A stretch of 64,000 nucleotides of DNA. Source: Pandoraea fibrosis (GTDB lineage: Bacteria; Pseudomonadota; Gammaproteobacteria; Burkholderiales; Burkholderiaceae). Below the pieces are notes generated by a model. That model was not told the DNA's origin, did no database searches, and worked only from the letters and a program-made list of their open reading frames with translations. The stretch is taken from positions 5,332,001 to 5,396,000 of the forward strand of contig NZ_CP047385.1 of NCBI RefSeq assembly GCF_000807775.2. The letters are read 5' to 3'. The first letter of the stretch is position 1. The number at the start of each line of letters is the position of its first letter. Shown here in pieces: positions 45,749 to 61,883 of the stretch. A program made the translations under genes and the position numbers.

Positions 45749-47062
45749 ATGAAGTCGCACGACCGGAGCGCCGCCCCCACGGCGCCGCACCTCGCCACCC
45801 CGTCCCTCCCACCGTCCGAATCCCCGCTGGCCGAAGCCTCGCGTCGTCGCTTCCTGCGACGCGCCGGTGCACTGGGCGTCGGCGCCAGTCTCGCGGGACG
45901 CGCACTCGATGTCCTCGCCGCCACCGCCGCGCCGCAGACGGTCACGCTGCCGTTTGCGAACGGCGAGCGCGACCTCGTGGCGTATCCGCAGAAACGGCCG
46001 CTGATCCGGCTCACGGCACGGCCGCCGCAACTGGAAACGCCGTTCGAAGTCTTCAACGACGGCCTGATTACGCCGAACGACGCGTTCTTCGTGCGCTATC
46101 ACCTCGCGGGCATTCCCACCGACATCGATCCGGCGAAACACCGGATTCGCGTGGGCGGCAGCGTTGCCAGGCCGCTCGACATCTCGCTTGCGTCGCTCAA
46201 GAAGGATTTCGGCGCGCCGGTGGAAATCGTGGCGGTGCATCAGTGCTCGGGCAACAGCCGCGGGTTTTTCGAGCCGCGCGTCGGCGGCGGGCAGATCGCC
46301 AACGGGGCGATGGGCAACGCGCGCTGGCGCGGCATTCCGCTCAAGCGGATTCTCGAGCGCGCCGGGGTGTCGTCCAGCGCAAAGCAGGTCACCTTCGAAG
46401 GCCTCGACCGGCCGATCGTTCCGGCGACGCCGGAGTTCGTGAAGGCGCTCGACCTCGATCACGCGATGGATGGCGAAGTGATGATCGCATTCGCCATGAA
46501 CGGGAAGGATCTGCCGATGCTCAACGGCTTTCCCGTGCGTCTGGTCGTGCCCGGCTACTACGGCACGTACTGGGTGAAGCATCTGGCGGACATCAACGTC
46601 GTGGACAAGGTGTTCGACGGCTTCTGGATGGCCACCGCCTATCGCATTCCGGACAACGACTGCAATTGCGTCGCCCCCGGCAAGGCACCCGAGAAAACCA
46701 AACCGATCGGACGCTTCACCGTGCGCTCGTTCGTCACCAGCCACACCGACGGGCAGCACGTTGCGGCGGGCCAGGCCACGCGCGTGCGCGGCATCGCCTT
46801 CGATGGCGGCGAAGGGATTCGCGACGTGCAGTTCTCGGCCGACGGCGGCCAGACATGGCAGGCCGCGCAACTGGGCAGCGAGTTGTCCAGGTATTCGTTC
46901 CGCGAGTGGACGGTGTCGTTCACACCGCCGCAGCCGGGCGAATACGCGTTGAAAGTCAGGGCAACGAATCGCGCAGGGGTCTCGCAACCGCTGCAATCGC
47001 TGTGGAATCCGGCCGGCTATCTGCGCAACGGGGTGGAAACCGTGCGCGTGATCGCGGCATGA
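45749..47062 (+). CDS. sorA: SorA-type sulfite dehydrogenase, molybdenum subunit
   Basis: A 437-residue molybdopterin enzyme that oxidises sulfite to sulfate in the periplasm. The Tat signal contains SRRRFLRRAGALGVG; the molybdenum cysteine is in VAVHQCSGNSRGFF (Cys166); a C-terminal Ig-like dimerisation domain follows. The ATG at 45749 has AGGAG eight bases upstream. It is immediately followed by a cytochrome c gene, as in SorAB. It is distinct from the SoxC gene elsewhere in the window, which belongs to the same family but has a different partner. Confidence 0.9.
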   Translation: MKSHDRSAAPTAPHLATPSLPPSESPLAEASRRRFLRRAGALGVGASLAGRALDVLAATAAPQTVTLPFANGERDLVAYPQKRPLIRLTARPPQLETPFEVFNDGLITPNDAFFVRYHLAGIPTDIDPAKHRIRVGGSVARPLDISLASLKKDFGAPVEIVAVHQCSGNSRGFFEPRVGGGQIANGAMGNARWRGIPLKRILERAGVSSSAKQVTFEGLDRPIVPATPEFVKALDLDHAMDGEVMIAFAMNGKDLPMLNGFPVRLVVPGYYGTYWVKHLADINVVDKVFDGFWMATAYRIPDNDCNCVAPGKAPEKTKPIGRFTVRSFVTSHTDGQHVAAGQATRVRGIAFDGGEGIRDVQFSADGGQTWQAAQLGSELSRYSFREWTVSFTPPQPGEYALKVRATNRAGVSQPLQSLWNPAGYLRNGVETVRVIAA

Positions 47063-55030: not shown

Positions 55031-55960
55031 TCAAAGCCGTTCGTCGTCAGCGTGCCATCGCCGGCCTGGCTCGGTGATGCCCCGACTGTGTCGATCCGCA
55101 TCGTCGCTCAGCTGAAGCGGTGTCTGAGGGGGCGCCTTGCGCTTGATCTCCGGCTCGTTCATTTCAGGCTTCCCCACTCCGACGATGCCCTTGATGGTCT
55201 TGACGCCCTTGATGCTCCGATTCGTGTCGTCGCTTTGCCCCTCCAGATCGGCGGCGGTATCGCGCACTCCGTCACGCGCGACGTCAGTGTCCCGGCTTTG
55301 CATCTGGAAGCTACCGCGCATGGCGACCAGCCCGGGCTTTCTCAATGGATTCGGGATCGTGTCCGGTGTCGGCCGCTGGTACTCGTCGACGAATCGGAAT
55401 GCCTCCGGCCGATCGATGGTCGACCTTCCCCCACGCACCCCGACCGTCTTCGCGACAATGATCGCGAAGTCGTGATCGGGCGAAGCGGAGTAGGCAAGCT
55501 TTGCCGGTTCGGTGAGATAGGTCACCGAATTGATCCGGCAATTCGACGGATTCGTCCGATCGCACTCTCGATACACACGAATCTCATAATTGCCCAAGCC
55601 GTGCGGTGGCTTGGTGGCCACGCCGGAAATATCGAGTGCGCTCGTGAGTGAGGTAGCGTCCAGATTGCCCACGTAGGCATAGTCGAACGACGAGGAGGCC
55701 GGCGTGTAGATAAACGTATGGTCGTTGAGCGTAAAGGTGCTACCGGGCGTCGATAGCATCTCGTTGATGTCTTTGTGGTATTTCGCGATGAATGTATCCG
55801 TCGCGTTACCGATCATGTTCAGGCTATGACCCACACGTTCGGCTCGCTCGACACGCATCTGACGCATCTGGTTCACGCCCCAGAACGTCGCCAGCAGACC
55901 CGCGACAGCAATCGCAATAGCGACCGAGACGAGAAGAATGCCGGATTGGTTGCTTCGCAT
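55031..55960 (-). CDS. PilV/shufflon-type pilin-like protein, truncated paralogue
   Basis: A 309-residue paralogue of the two larger genes at 57929 and 59961. The prepilin-like leader MRSNQSG is followed by ILLVSVAIAIAVAGLLATFWG; no glutamate occurs at position +5. The head region keeps the family pattern ERVGHSLNMIGNATDTFI, YLTEPAKLAYS and RFVDE, but the shaft stops after KGVKTIKGIVGVGKPEM and no C-terminal tip domain is present. The last 30 residues are unlike the paralogues and may be frame-shifted; the +1 frame beyond has DGTLTTNGFETHDV. GAGGG lies before the ATG at 55960. It might be a pilin-only subunit or a decayed gene. Confidence 0.6.
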   Translation of the reverse strand: MRSNQSGILLVSVAIAIAVAGLLATFWGVNQMRQMRVERAERVGHSLNMIGNATDTFIAKYHKDINEMLSTPGSTFTLNDHTFIYTPASSSFDYAYVGNLDATSLTSALDISGVATKPPHGLGNYEIRVYRECDRTNPSNCRINSVTYLTEPAKLAYSASPDHDFAIIVAKTVGVRGGRSTIDRPEAFRFVDEYQRPTPDTIPNPLRKPGLVAMRGSFQMQSRDTDVARDGVRDTAADLEGQSDDTNRSIKGVKTIKGIVGVGKPEMNEPEIKRKAPPQTPLQLSDDADRHSRGITEPGRRWHADDERL

Positions 55961-56055
55961 TGACGCGCCCTCAGTTGAATCGTCCGGCAACTACGCTGCG
56001 ACACATGCGCGCGATTGCGAGATCGTTGAAATGTGGCATTGTCAGTGAGGTCACT

Positions 56056-56085
56056 CGTTAGAAGCTTGGGAAATACCCGTTAACG
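56056..56085 (-). promoter_or_regulatory. Shared upstream element of the PilV-like family (copy 1)
   Basis: On the minus strand TTAACGGGTATTTCCCAAGC begins here, 96 bp before the start of the truncated gene. It is the counterpart of the elements at 59838 and 61979. A CATT (56037-56040) sits 19 bases nearer to the gene, as in the other two copies. Confidence 0.55.
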
Positions 56086-56125
56086 CTTCATCGGTGACGG
56101 CGAATACCAAAACCAGAGCCCGAAA

Positions 56126-56159
56126 TAAAAAACCGCGGGACTTTCGTCACGCGGCTTTT
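56126..56159 (-). terminator. Terminator after the alanine symporter gene
   Basis: CCGCG (56132-56136) and CGCGG (56149-56153) stem with an A run on the left and a T run on the right; on the minus strand it ends the symporter transcript, 60 bases past the stop. Confidence 0.75.
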
Positions 56160-56221
56160 TCATATTTTGACCATCGGCAGCACTTCGACAGCCCCTAATT
56201 GCGTGTCGTACCGGAACGTTG

Positions 56222-57661
56222 TTAACGTCCGCCACCCCGCTCTGCATGCCAGACGTCCTTTGACAAGCGTTCGCGCATCTCCGGTGGCAGTACGTCGCGG
56301 GTAAAGACAGGCTCTGTAATGCCAGCTTTGCGTTGTGCCTGATAGTCGCGCCATGCAATCAACGCGTACTTCATCAACATACCGATCGCGATCAGATTGA
56401 TGAACGCCATCAGCGCGGTGCCGACATCGGCGAAGCTCCACACCAGCGGCAGACTGGCGACTGACCCAAGCATCACAGCCAACAGCACGAGCGCGCGGAA
56501 GATATTGAGAAGCCACGGACGTTGCGTCAGATAGTCCATGTTCACTTCGGCATAGGCATAGTTGCCAAGCACGCTCGAGTAGGCGAGGAAGAACACGGTG
56601 ATGCCAGTGAATATGACGGCCCAATTGCCAACATGCGCCGCCAGGGCGCGTTGCGTGAGCACAGCACCTTCCGGTGCAGCCCCCGGGATGAACTGACCCG
56701 ATAACAGAATCATGAACGCCGTGGCCGAACACACGACGATGGTGTCGAAGAACACGCCGAGCATCTGCATCAACCCTTGTTGCACCGGATGTCGGGTCGT
56801 CGCCACCGCTGCTGCGTTGGGTGCGCTGCCCATGCCCGCCTCGTTGGAGAAGAGACCACGCTTGACGCCCATCAACACCGCCTGACTCACCGCGTAGCCA
56901 GCGATGCCGCCCGCGGCCGGTTCAAGTCCGAAGGCGTGCCGAAGGATCATCGACATCATGCCGGGAATCTGATCGATGTTGGCGATGCAGATGTACACGG
57001 CAAGGCCGAGATAAGCGATGGCCATCACGGGCACGATCCATTGCGCTACGCGCGCCACGCGCCGGACACCGCCATAGATGATTGGCGCCGTCATCAACAC
57101 GAGTGCAATGCCGATCCAGGTCCGTTCCCAGCCGAACGACGCCTCCAACGCCTCCGCAATTGAATGCGACTGCACGGAGTTCAGCGCGAAGCCGAACGTA
57201 AATAGCAATGCCAGCGCAAAGAGAATGCCGAATTTGCGCGAGCCAAGGCCCATCTGAATGTAGTACGCGGGGCCGCCACGAAAGGTGCTGTCGTGGTGCG
57301 GAATCTTGAAGATCTGTGCCAGCGTCGATTCGACGAATGCGGACGCCATGCCGAGCAGCGCCGTCATCCACATCCAGAAGATGGCGCCCGGCCCCCCGAT
57401 GGTCAGCGCGACGGCGACGCCGGCAATGTTGCCGGTCCCGACGCGACTCGCCAGCCCCGTAGCAAACGCCTGAAACGGCGAGATACCCGAGGTGGTTCCC
57501 GCGGAACGCAGCAGACAGATGCTGTGCCAGAGTGCACGAATCTGAATCCCGCCGAATCGAACAGTGAAGTAGAACCCCGCACCCAGCAAGGCGACGACGA
57601 GGGGGTATCCCGACAACACCCCGCCAACGGCATCGATCAACGGCTTGAGCCAACTTTCCAT
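56222..57661 (-). CDS. Sodium:alanine symporter (AGCS family)
   Basis: A 479-residue inner-membrane transporter. SRVGTGNIAGVAVALTIGGPGAIFWMW, FRGGPAYYIQMGLG and FSNEAGMGSAPNAAA are hallmarks of the alanine or glycine:cation symporter family (AlsT, YaaJ). About 11 hydrophobic segments are present. GGAGA lies before the ATG at 57661; a start seven codons upstream is less likely. It imports alanine or glycine with sodium. It is flanked by terminators, so it is an independent unit inserted between PilV-like genes. Confidence 0.92.
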   Translation of the reverse strand: MESWLKPLIDAVGGVLSGYPLVVALLGAGFYFTVRFGGIQIRALWHSICLLRSAGTTSGISPFQAFATGLASRVGTGNIAGVAVALTIGGPGAIFWMWMTALLGMASAFVESTLAQIFKIPHHDSTFRGGPAYYIQMGLGSRKFGILFALALLFTFGFALNSVQSHSIAEALEASFGWERTWIGIALVLMTAPIIYGGVRRVARVAQWIVPVMAIAYLGLAVYICIANIDQIPGMMSMILRHAFGLEPAAGGIAGYAVSQAVLMGVKRGLFSNEAGMGSAPNAAAVATTRHPVQQGLMQMLGVFFDTIVVCSATAFMILLSGQFIPGAAPEGAVLTQRALAAHVGNWAVIFTGITVFFLAYSSVLGNYAYAEVNMDYLTQRPWLLNIFRALVLLAVMLGSVASLPLVWSFADVGTALMAFINLIAIGMLMKYALIAWRDYQAQRKAGITEPVFTRDVLPPEMRERLSKDVWHAERGGGR

Positions 57662-57797
57662 GTCACGCGTCTCCTGTCGCAACCACTCGAAGGCCCTCTG
57701 AAAATAGAAGGTTAGCGACGAAGAATCTCAAGATTTGGCCCGGTGCGATAGAACGTAGCGAGACTTTCCGCCAATTCCCATACGTAACCGCGCGACA

Positions 57798-57832
57798 AGA
57801 AAAAAGCCGCCCGGCAAACGCCGCGCGGCTTA
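57798..57832 (-). terminator. Terminator after the second PilV-like gene
   Basis: AGCCGC and GCGGCT stem (57805-57810 and 57825-57830) with an A run on the left that becomes a T tract on the minus strand. Confidence 0.7.
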
Positions 57833-57928
57833 AAGACAAGGCAAGGAGACATCGAGGACTAGCTTAACGAGGAAATATGTCTGTCATGTGACGCCCGCAA
57901 AGCCATCGTCAATGCATCGTGCCGCTCA

Positions 57929-59746
57929 TCAGAACAGCGATCGCCACTCGCCGTTGTTGGATTGCACCGTATCCACAGCGCCCGCAAACACCTGCACTCC
58001 CGAATTACGCATCATGAGGAATTTTCGCAGCTCGGCATCGAAGTCAGCATGTCCCTGGGGCAGATAAAAGTAGGAACCCAGGTCGCCTGAATATCCACTG
58101 GACCCGTCGCCGTCCTTACCACCCGCCCACCTGCCGATGAAGAACCGACCGCCTATGCGACTTCTCTCTGTACTGCCCCTTGCAATCTCATAGCCACCCA
58201 TTTGCAGGTACGCAATGCGTCCCTTGGTCAGGCACATCATCCTTCCCGTTCCTTGGCCACGCGAGACTTGAAATCCTACCTGGTCATAGCCCCAACTATT
58301 CCGGCGCCCGGTCTCCCAGTAATCATAGAGCATGACAAAGCTACCGCCCTCAGCCTTGCACACCCCGCCTTTACTGCCGAGGAGAAGCGGAAACCCAACG
58401 GCATCTTTGCCCTGTCTGGGACTGGGTATGGTGAAACTTGAGATGTACAAGCTGTCACCGCGATTGTCGTTGACGATTTGCTCAACCACTGTCTTGGGCA
58501 CTTCGTCTTTGGTCACAGGCGCAGACTGCATGGAGAGCTTCCACTTCCACTTCTCGCCCTTCTCTTGTTGGCAGGACAGGATTCTTCCAGCGCCGTCTCG
58601 TCCGAGCCCCCAAACGTCACATTCACTTCCTTCAATAACAGCTTCGCCGAGCTCGACGACACCCGAGGTCGATTTCAGGGATCGTGACTCCACATTCTTC
58701 GCTCGAACCGACGTGGCTTTCACAGCATTGGCACCGTCGATATCGTTGTTCTGCAGATCCAGGTTGCCGCTGATCGTCGCACCTTCAGTGGCAGTCAAGG
58801 CACCCACCGTCGCGCTTTTCGCTTGGATGCCCGCCATTTTCAATCGCCCCGTCCCCTCAATATCGCCCGCGTTGACGATATTGTTGTTGACGATCTTATT
58901 GTCCTTTTTCGACTCCAGATTCAGCGTTCCCTTGATAGACGCTTCGCCCACATCCAGACTTCCCATTTGGAGCGTGCCCTTTCCCTGGATATTTCCCGCC
59001 CCGACGATATTGTGTCGGGTCGTCGCGCCATTCGCGCCGCCGTTGGTATCTTCCAGATTCAGATTCCCTGTCATCGACTTGCGTCCATCAAGGCTGAGCA
59101 GGGTGTCCATCGCGCTCGTCTGATGTCCGCCGCGCACGGCGATCAGGCCCGGCTGTGCAGACGGATTCACGACCGCGCGCTCCGACCCGTCATTATCGAG
59201 AAAGCGGAATTGATCCGGCGAGTCCTGTCTCGACATGCCGCCCAATGCACCGATCTTCCGTATCGCTGTGGCCGCTGCGTCGTAATCGGGCGCGTTAGAA
59301 TAGGCACGCTTCATCGGCTCGGTGAGATACACCAGCGTCTTGATGTCGCACTTGTTGTCGACGCAATCTTCATACACACGAATGGCGTATTCGCCCATCC
59401 CGTTCGGCGGCCGGGTCGCGGCACCCCGAACGTTCATGACCTTGATCAGGCTTTCCGCCGTCAGATTGCCGACCACGCGAGGCGAAGTTCCCTCCCGCGT
59501 GAACTGAACGTCACCGATCGCAAACGATTCATTCTTTTCGAACAATTTATTGAGTCGATCGTGATACATCACCGCGAAGCTCTGCGTCGCCTCGCCCATG
59601 ATCTTCAGCGACTCCCCGATTCGCTCCGCGCGCTCGACGCGCAACTGGCGTGTGTAATTGACGCCCCAGAACGTAATCAGCATGCCGGCCACGCCTACGG
59701 CGACGGCTGCTGAGATCAGAAAAATGCCGGACTGCTTTCTTCGCAT
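57929..59746 (-). CDS. PilV/shufflon-type pilus-tip protein
   Basis: A 605-residue protein. The leader MRRKQSG is followed by a hydrophobic stretch IFLISAAVAVGVAGMLITFWG, as in prepilins, without the +5 glutamate. The N-terminal head (to about residue 215) is conserved with its two paralogues. A repetitive shaft follows, with blocks such as MTGNLNLEDTNGG, NNIVNAGDIEGTGRLKM and ATISGNLDLQNNDIDG. ECDVWGLGRDGAGRILSCQ with paired cysteines is the pattern that ends the constant part of shufflon PilV proteins, and the remaining 190 residues form a candidate receptor-binding tip. No recombinase or pilus gene is near. GAGGGA precedes the ATG at 59746. Confidence 0.75.
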   Translation of the reverse strand: MRRKQSGIFLISAAVAVGVAGMLITFWGVNYTRQLRVERAERIGESLKIMGEATQSFAVMYHDRLNKLFEKNESFAIGDVQFTREGTSPRVVGNLTAESLIKVMNVRGAATRPPNGMGEYAIRVYEDCVDNKCDIKTLVYLTEPMKRAYSNAPDYDAAATAIRKIGALGGMSRQDSPDQFRFLDNDGSERAVVNPSAQPGLIAVRGGHQTSAMDTLLSLDGRKSMTGNLNLEDTNGGANGATTRHNIVGAGNIQGKGTLQMGSLDVGEASIKGTLNLESKKDNKIVNNNIVNAGDIEGTGRLKMAGIQAKSATVGALTATEGATISGNLDLQNNDIDGANAVKATSVRAKNVESRSLKSTSGVVELGEAVIEGSECDVWGLGRDGAGRILSCQQEKGEKWKWKLSMQSAPVTKDEVPKTVVEQIVNDNRGDSLYISSFTIPSPRQGKDAVGFPLLLGSKGGVCKAEGGSFVMLYDYWETGRRNSWGYDQVGFQVSRGQGTGRMMCLTKGRIAYLQMGGYEIARGSTERSRIGGRFFIGRWAGGKDGDGSSGYSGDLGSYFYLPQGHADFDAELRKFLMMRNSGVQVFAGAVDTVQSNNGEWRSLF

Positions 59747-59837
59747 GGTCGTGTCCCTCGGAACGGCTGGCAAACGTGCCACGCGAGGCGTCGACGATTG
59801 CGGCAGCATGAAAAAGGACATTCTGAGTTGAGCGGCA

Positions 59838-59866
59838 GGCTTCAGGGTTAGGATTTGACCGATAAA
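59838..59866 (-). promoter_or_regulatory. Shared upstream element of the PilV-like family (copy 2)
   Basis: On the minus strand TTTATCGGTCAAATCCTAAC begins this element, 92 bp before the ATG. It agrees with copy 3 at about 20 of 25 positions. A CATT lies 19 bases nearer to the gene. Confidence 0.55.
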
Positions 59867-59960
59867 ATTCTTCGGCGGGCTCAGATACCGAAGTCATGCC
59901 GCAAAAGGAGAAAGGCGCGTTGTGAAATGCCGCAACGGTTCTCCTGATCACCCCCCGCAC

Positions 59961-61883
59961 TTACAACACTTCGTCAAAGCCAGCGTCGCGAACATCCTGC
60001 AAGGAATCGAAGCGGCACGTCGCCCGAAGGTAGTTGCTGAAGGGCAGATTCGAATATGAAACATACATGCCGTCATTGCGAGTCTCCGCATGAAGGCTAC
60101 CGAGACCGTATTCGACGTTGTCGCCGCGGACCCTAAAGAATGTCTCCACATTGCACATCCGCGCCTTCTTGATGAAGTACCCCGTGTCGAGCGCCAAACG
60201 TTCAAAGTTCGACGGGTACCACACGCGCTTTCCGATCACGTGCGTGCCAACCCGATTCATATCGATGCCACCGAGCCCCAGTGTCAGATCGGCGAGCCAT
60301 CTCTCAAACTCGACGTGATCGCTCGAATAGTTGACCACACCTTTGACATCGAAAAGCTCGTCCACTTTGAACACGGCGCCTTGCGCACCGTAGTATTTGG
60401 ATTGCCGGGCCGCGTTGGTGTCGTACCGCCACAGACACAACAGAGGATGCTTGCTCGCCCCGGCAAGCGTGTACTTGCCGGCACTATCGCGCTCGAGCTT
60501 CGCCGGTTTGTTGCTCCAACGGCTGCCGACGTGACTCTCGGACCGAGACGAGAATCCACAAAGCACCACGTTCGATGCGGAGTAACCATTTAAGGCAGGT
60601 CGATATCGATTTCCTCCGATCCAGGCCGTTCCGCCGACGGGAACCTTCGAGATATTCCATCTCTCACCTCGCCCAATGCCGACAAGCACCATGTCGGTAA
60701 TTGTCTCCTTGGCGATTGCCATGAGCACGTTGTCCGGCACATCGGCCTTGCTGTTCGCAGTCCCCGAGAGCTTCCATAACCTTCCCGTCGTGCTTTTGTC
60801 GTCGGGCTGACACGACAACACCCTGCCGTCGCCATTCACCGCGATACCCGAGCCCTTGCACTCGTCGTTCACCGCTTGCACTTCATTGAGCTCAACGATG
60901 CCGGACGTCGACCGGAGCCGTTTCGATTTCACTTCCTGCGCCTCGATGGTCTTCGCATTCGTGACATTTTCTTTCCCCATATCCAACGAACCGCCGAACC
61001 TCGACGGACCTTTGGTTGTCAGGGAATCGGTCGACAGGGTCGCGGCATTCAACTCCCTGGCCACCGCCTTGTCGGCAATGTTGAGTTGACCGACGTCCAG
61101 CGCGCCTTCGGCTTTAATGTTGTGGACACCCACGATGCTGTGCTTCTGCGACGTATTGGGATCCATAAAATTCAGATCCCCCGTCATCGCTCGCGAGCCG
61201 TCGCGCGTCACGACGTTGTTCAGATCCTTTGTCTGTGAACCACCGCGCATGGCGATCAACCCGGGCCGCCCCAGAGGGTTCGCTACGGGTAGCGCACCGT
61301 TGACCTGTTCGATGAATCTGAACTCGCCCGCGTTATCTGGCGTCGACAGTCCGCCATAAACCCCTATCTTTTTCGCAGCGACGATCGCCAGACTGAGATC
61401 GGGTTCTGAGGAGTACAGCTTCTTGATCGGCTCCGTGAGATACGCAAGCGTCTCGATCCTGCAAGACGACGTGCTGCCAGCGTCGCAGATCCGGTACACA
61501 TGCAGCCTATACTCTCCAACGCCACGAGGCGGCGTCGCGCCAACCCCCGGGAGTGCGAGCGCCTTGATCAGACGCGTTGCATTCAGATCGGCGATCTCGG
61601 TGGTCGCTCCCGGCCCCGGCGTTCCTTTGACTGTGAAGGTCTCCCCACCCGCAGAGAAACTTCCTGTCGTGCCTGAGAGCACCTTCTCGATGTCGCCGTG
61701 GTGTTTTACTGTGAACGTTTCGACGGCATTGCCGATGACTTTCAGCGATTCTCCGATACGCTCCGCACGCTCAATGCGCATTTGACGGCTCTGCTGAACA
61801 CCAAAAAAAGTAATTAGCATGCCGACAATACCTACGGCAATCGCAGCGGAGATGAGAAAAATTCCAGACTGTCCGATTCGCAT
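59961..61883 (-). CDS. PilV/shufflon-type pilus-tip protein
   Basis: A 640-residue paralogue of the gene at 57929. The leader MRIGQSG and the hydrophobic IFLISAAIAVGIVGMLITFFG are almost the same, followed by the same head domain (SLKVIGNAVETFTVKHHGD, AYLTEPIKKLYSSEPD, FRFIEQVNGALPVANPLG). The shaft has MTGDLNFMDPN, HSIVGVHNIKAEGALDVGQLNI and LRSTSGIVELNEV. NDECKGSGIAVNGDGRVLSCQ then leads to a tip region of about 270 residues unrelated to that of the paralogue. The conserved N-terminus with differing C-termini is the arrangement seen in PilV variants. GAGAGGG lies before the ATG at 61883. Confidence 0.75.
   Translation of the reverse strand: MRIGQSGIFLISAAIAVGIVGMLITFFGVQQSRQMRIERAERIGESLKVIGNAVETFTVKHHGDIEKVLSGTTGSFSAGGETFTVKGTPGPGATTEIADLNATRLIKALALPGVGATPPRGVGEYRLHVYRICDAGSTSSCRIETLAYLTEPIKKLYSSEPDLSLAIVAAKKIGVYGGLSTPDNAGEFRFIEQVNGALPVANPLGRPGLIAMRGGSQTKDLNNVVTRDGSRAMTGDLNFMDPNTSQKHSIVGVHNIKAEGALDVGQLNIADKAVARELNAATLSTDSLTTKGPSRFGGSLDMGKENVTNAKTIEAQEVKSKRLRSTSGIVELNEVQAVNDECKGSGIAVNGDGRVLSCQPDDKSTTGRLWKLSGTANSKADVPDNVLMAIAKETITDMVLVGIGRGERWNISKVPVGGTAWIGGNRYRPALNGYSASNVVLCGFSSRSESHVGSRWSNKPAKLERDSAGKYTLAGASKHPLLCLWRYDTNAARQSKYYGAQGAVFKVDELFDVKGVVNYSSDHVEFERWLADLTLGLGGIDMNRVGTHVIGKRVWYPSNFERLALDTGYFIKKARMCNVETFFRVRGDNVEYGLGSLHAETRNDGMYVSYSNLPFSNYLRATCRFDSLQDVRDAGFDEVL

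Follow-up and report, generated by a model that had tools for sequence, protein, structure and literature searches.

How are genes of the plasmid PilV type to be understood on a bacterial chromosome, if neither a pilus operon nor a recombinase gene lies beside them? This question is raised by three paralogous genes of Pandoraea fibrosis, a member of a genus which includes opportunists of the lung. The genes lie within a stretch of 64,000 nucleotides (contig NZ_CP047385.1, positions 5,332,001 to 5,396,000), called the window here. By sequence family, they encode PilV-type minor pilins of R64-type type IVb pili (T4bP). Very probably these proteins are tip subunits of such a pilus, their own genes having been relocated and multiplied and their tips recombined without cassette inversion. 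PilV-type minor pilins are already known; what is new here are relocated and multiplied PilV genes without a shufflon.

The features of the locus, in window coordinates, are:

59961..61883, minus strand: copy 1, a PilV-type minor pilin of 640 amino acids with head, shaft, LSCQ segment and tip (open reading frame (ORF); tblastn to plasmid proteins in the PilV position, best E-value 4e-23)
61179..61883, minus strand: pilin head of copy 1, residues 1-235, prepilin-like leader included (three alignments and a structure model)
60807..60860, minus strand: cysteine-bounded segment of copy 1, C342...VLSCQ359, closing the PilV constant part (lines up with the plasmid C...LSCQ segment)
59961..60806, minus strand: variable C-terminal tip of copy 1, 281 amino acids (one of 14 tip types among 39 proteins)
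57929..59746, minus strand: copy 2, a PilV-type minor pilin of 605 amino acids from the MR start (ORF)
58568..58621, minus strand: cysteine-bounded segment of copy 2, C376...ILSCQ393 (sequence reading)
57929..58567, minus strand: variable tip of copy 2, 212 amino acids (tip comparison; the P. communis orthologue carries a different tip)
55031..55960, minus strand: copy 3, a PilV-type head with shortened shaft, 309 amino acids (ORF and sequence comparison)
56222-57682: sodium:alanine symporter gene (PF01235), between copies 2 and 3

All three proteins open with the MR-x3-SG leader and a hydrophobic helix, at the minus-strand positions given by the original prediction, and carry a serine at position +5 after the glycine, so that the +5 glutamate is missing throughout, as had been noted. 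For copy 2, the MR-x3-SG methionine was taken as the start, while the ORF list lets it begin earlier, with an ATG at 59821. The repetitive shaft and the C...VLSCQ or C...ILSCQ segment can be read directly in both long copies. Their heads are 47% identical and their tips 21%, and the corresponding tip-type profiles share just a short, weakly similar linker (probability 45, 43 columns). The structure model of the copy 1 head has a predicted local distance difference test score mostly of 80-89 over residues 41-190, with one block at 70. By sequence comparison, copy 3 ends within the shaft and possesses neither the LSCQ segment nor a tip. The claim of unrelated tips applies to copies 1 and 2 and has no object in copy 3. 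Likewise, only copies 1 and 2 form the tandem that had been described, since the symporter gene stands between copies 2 and 3. The short form of copy 3 recurs in ASV26 (G024), and orthologues of 539-544 amino acids are found in six other genomes. A search of the whole genome (one contig, 5,592,065 bases) yielded no further copy beyond these three. The P. communis orthologue of copy 1 shows 81% identity in the best segment, and all eight named relatives belong to Pandoraea. The ratio of nonsynonymous to synonymous substitutions (dN/dS, Nei-Gojobori) of the heads lies at 0.08-0.21 across nine comparisons, one of which pairs copy 3, tipless as it is, with the corresponding ASV26 gene (0.15); these values are rough, since synonymous change is high in several comparisons.

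The family assignment comes from plasmid relatives. A tblastn search with copy 1 matched 16 plasmid records (E-values 4e-23 to 3e-2). In all 15 records opened, the match occupies the PilV position, where a pil gene cluster closes on its 3' side; the 16th is unannotated and resembles one of the opened records in species, length and score. According to the annotation of the 15, the gene preceding the match, or preceding an intervening ATPase gene, encodes a major pilin in 11, a prepilin-type protein in two and a hypothetical protein in two. Three records already annotate the matched gene as PilV, and in one (H8) the annotation shows no gene at the matched position. A profile comparison of 18 Pandoraea proteins with 14 of these PilV-slot proteins (hhalign) gave a probability of 99.9 and an E-value of 1.5e-37 over profile columns 1-407, equivalent to residues 1-378 of copy 1 with the LSCQ segment included. 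The homology covers the head and the constant part; the aligned proteins are PilV-slot proteins of plasmids other than R64. The PilV-type identity proposed earlier is well borne out by these comparisons. Seven plasmid PilV-slot proteins have an annotated frame in which a glycine cleavage site can be recognized, and by eye a glutamate at +5 was seen in one of them; judging from these sequences, its lack is not peculiar to the Pandoraea genes. No sequence relation to the type IVb minor pilins TcpB and CofB, which form a trimeric tip assembly, was detected in a search of PDB sequences.

The pilus itself was supposed to be encoded elsewhere, and a suitable operon indeed lies on the same contig. 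It was found with the profiles TIGR02520 and PF08805, neither of which has a match within the window:

contig 250,196-258,829: R64-type T4bP operon of eight genes in the order pilS-L-N-O-P-Q-R-U, without pilV

Here, PilN reaches 302 bits with TIGR02520 (cut-off 287.65) and PilS 40 bits with PF08805 (cut-off 22), while pilP is weak (20.6 bits, cut-off 34.65). The other members are TcpQ (tcpQ/pilL), PilO (PF06864), a T2SSE ATPase (pilQ), T2SSF (pilR) and an A24 prepilin peptidase (pilU). After pilU comes a gene for a GMC oxidoreductase and no pilV; gatB, polyphosphate kinase 2 and an AcrB-type pump are the further flanks. If the contig is a closed circle, about 0.45 Mb separate the operon from the genes in the window.

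Both loci recur together across the genus, for which 32 genomes were sampled, one per species and P. fibrosis included. One to four pilV-like genes are present in 28 of them, and PilN scores at least 250 bits in exactly those 28, exceeding the family cut-off in 27. The remaining four genomes, without pilV-like genes, gave PilN scores of 62.7, 41.2 and 40.4 bits and none at all. The survey of related genomes thus found genes and operon jointly present or jointly missing. PF08805 is a poor marker here, because it matched just 24 of the 32. When both places were fetched for the 28 genomes, the same eight operon genes were present in every one, and a pilV-like ORF lay in none of these operons. The 46 pilV-like ORFs sit in 29 stretches, each of which contains at least one of sdaA, alsT, livJ, putP and putA; the neighbours in the window were identified by Pfam. 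Two further observations concern the pilus genes of the sample. The pilN gene of G018 (G018:C1:205760-207523) contains one in-frame TAG, unlike its relatives, which is either a sequencing error or a broken gene, and G012, G001, G014 and G029 (L142-L145) harbor a second, divergent T4bP cluster.

Outside the genus, pilV has a different place. A family survey covered 249 genomes, of which Pandoraea accounts for 31; among the 218 others, the head profile gave weak matches in 11 (E-values 5e-9 to 3e-6), and in 10 of these 11 the match lies within a pil cluster. The eleventh, G113 (L194:10805-12100), has a PilV-like head gene and no pil gene in the 16 kb fetched, a further orphan outside Pandoraea. 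The best PilN beyond the genus, 44% identical, belongs to G065 from another genus of the Burkholderiaceae. Its T4bP cluster shares the order pilS-L-N-O-P-Q-R with Pandoraea and differs in that a pilV-like gene comes last, overlapping pilR by four bases, whereas the gene after pilR in the Pandoraea operon is pilU and the pilV-like genes are located at another place. According to the available passages of a comparative paper, R64-variant operons include pilV, and Burkholderia Tfp7, also a chromosomal R64-variant T4bP in which TcpQ possibly replaces PilL, differs from the Pandoraea operon by having pilV2 inside (PMC3984277). Since pilV lies within the pil clusters of the outgroups, the best reading of the arrangement in Pandoraea is that of a G065-like operon whose pilV would now sit at another site.

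One point qualifies the assignment of the genes to the PilV family. Direct Pfam and NCBIfam scans of the three proteins returned nothing, Shufflon_N (PF04917) included, and the Shufflon_N profile search of the genome gave no match; it matched nowhere in the control genomes either. Of the two families that had been named for the head, Shufflon_N is thus without a match, and the head falls into the PilV family, not into an unrelated one. Applied to ten plasmid PilV-slot proteins, Shufflon_N passed its cut-off for three, stayed below it for two and left five unmatched; therefore it covers only part of the family and overlooks many PilV-slot proteins. The gyrB tree, in which genomes are few and G017 has a long branch and an unsure placement, speaks for a link between the two loci: G023, G025 and G030 form one clade, all negative, and the negative G017 groups with the positive G028 across a starred branch (100/99). 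The negatives therefore occupy two places in the tree, which would require at least two joint changes at both loci wherever the root is placed, if this branch holds.

With regard to diversification, the view that no recombinase, inverted repeats or pil genes accompany the locus holds at the genes themselves, where the integrase, site-pattern, TIGR02520 and PF08805 searches came back empty; a shufflon recombinase with its repeats was not found beside them. Even when up to three mismatches are allowed, the 19-base shufflon-site pattern does not occur in the window, and the 17-base form has no exact match in the genome. With two mismatches, the 17-base form matches 76 times in the genome, compared to 45 times for the pattern read backwards; two of these matches fall in the window (near 46134 and 49917), where each is separated from the genes by more than 5 kb. 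No shufflon-linked integrase was matched in the window. The genome contains two integrase matches, the best of which lies 2.2 Mb away, with no shufflon-type repeats around it. From these searches, there is no shufflon at this locus. At G000:C1 about 3.146 Mb (L232:8783-13524), an integrase gene was seen by eye beside genes resembling those for an AAA ATPase and an HNH protein; such a layout may be reminiscent of two-gene phage defence systems.

How the tips then came to differ can be approached by comparing heads and tips. The 39 proteins with a measurable tip fall into 14 tip types (45% linkage), where type 2 has a counterpart in the last part of type 3 (probability 99.4) and types 6 and 9 correspond in their last parts (99.7). 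Head and tip identity correlate with r 0.73 over 741 pairs, which are not independent. In 52 pairs, heads of at least 60% identity are combined with tips below 30%; three pairs show the reverse (head below 55%, tip at least 45%), all involving one ASV26 gene. Copy 2 of P. communis is 87% identical to window copy 2 in the head and 28% in the tip, whereas the P. eparura orthologue reaches 86% and 80%, respectively. The head of the ASV26 gene is 73% identical to copy 1 and 50% to copy 2, while its shaft and tip are each 69% identical to copy 2 and the tip only 18% to copy 1. In P. communis copy 2 and the ASV26 gene, similarity switches at about residues 240-270, the border of head and shaft. Related species thus appear to have exchanged tips. 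As agent of this exchange, we infer homologous recombination close to where the head ends; tip loss followed by regain from outside is a possible alternative route. Near sdaA, copy-1-type tip remnants lie outside open pilV-like genes in G013 (P. horticolens, L099:12566-13096) and G003 (L089:7372-7548), probably representing a decayed copy.

The following working model would fit these results. In Pandoraea, the pilV-like genes stand apart from the pil operon, often in several copies, and the sdaA-alsT-livJ-putP-putA region is their conserved second site. PilU, the prepilin peptidase of the operon, would cut the leader after the glycine of MR-x3-SG, and the cleaved head would join the pilus, probably at the tip. 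From there, the shaft may project the variable C-terminal domain, which could bind a surface ligand such as a glycan; copy 3 is a tipless head. The repertoire would consist of separate fixed genes, the copy number of which shifts by gain, loss and decay, and in the course of evolution shaft and tip would be swapped through homologous recombination close to where the conserved head ends, instead of site-specific cassette inversion. We infer the pairing with the remote pilus, the tip position, cleavage, adhesion, kind of ligand and regulation. If correct, genes without a usable family match would now be tied to a chromosomal T4bP in 28 of the 32 genus genomes, and a second way of diversifying pilus tips is suggested. 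More tentatively, and with lower odds than the reverse, this open, recombinase-free repertoire could replace a shufflon altogether: several full-length adhesin genes, uncoupled from the operon and perhaps separately regulated, would recombine heads with shafts and tips by homologous recombination, so that a single type of pilus could display different or mixed tips within one cell, and the tipless copy 3 might serve as cap or competitor.

Somewhat less probable still is a slow switching system, a recombinase-free counterpart of the shufflon in which gene conversion among the copies would swap tips inside a strain lineage. The ASV26 gene, joining a copy-1-type head to a shaft and tip of copy-2-type, and the differing tip of P. 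communis copy 2 would both be expected from it, but no tip pieces lie outside genes in the window, and head and tip identity mostly travel together. Exchange within a strain is not visible here, because the sample has one genome per species.

That pilus and tips serve conjugation by stabilising mating pairs, as in TP114, is unlikely. Such a role has been reported for plasmid PilV in the available passages of PMC9045228, where TP114 PilV is described as both adhesin and minor pilin, the range of recipients depending on its C-terminal variants, which Rci varies at sfx sites. The identified neighbours at both Pandoraea loci, however, are metabolic, transport and housekeeping genes, no search having been aimed at conjugation genes.

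Slightly more improbable is that the proteins belong, as minor pilins or pseudopilins, to a filament other than the T4bP, either a type IVa pilus or that of type II secretion. The genes are linked to the T4bP operon in none of the 28 Pandoraea genomes, and the genomes hold other, low-scoring secretin matches. Nevertheless, G023, G025 and G030 keep three to five such low-scoring secretin-family matches, yet are without strong PilN and without pilV-like genes, and the relatives sit in T4bP clusters in the 15 plasmids opened and in 10 of the 11 family genomes. Decaying, non-working leftovers from a plasmid or from an integrated conjugative element, which the missing tip of copy 3, the tip remnants in G013 and G003 and the plasmid-borne relatives found first might suggest, are the most improbable reading in view of the low head dN/dS, the gene neighbourhood kept in 28 of the 32 genomes and the gatB, polyphosphate kinase 2, AcrB-type pump and GMC oxidoreductase flanks of the pil operon.

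Compared to known systems, the preferred reading, relocated tip subunits of an R64-type T4bP, describes proteins which, like the thin-pilus PilV of R64 type (IncI1/IncI2), combine a conserved N-terminal part with a variable C-terminal tip. In contrast to the R64-type shufflon PilV, the Pandoraea locus is without sfx sites or Rci, several fixed genes are present outside the pil operon, and tip exchange begins where head and shaft meet, not behind the LSCQ segment. An open literature search, with most subscription journals outside its reach, returned nothing joining Pandoraea with PilV or with 'type IVb', and the available passages of a Pandoraea plasmid paper treat secretion systems and no such pilus (PMC5064223). 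The two closest plasmid relatives, from Chromobacterium phragmitis and Vogesella (L005, L006; best plasmid E-values to copy 1, 4e-23 and 4e-20), share the head and the LSCQ segment. They differ in that the gene lies in the pil cluster and is followed by several repeated sites of about 19 bases in both orientations and an integrase gene. In these plasmids, the region after pilV is shufflon-like (L005:8600-10800, L006:10600-15200), and much of this interval carries no annotated gene in the PLSDB table.

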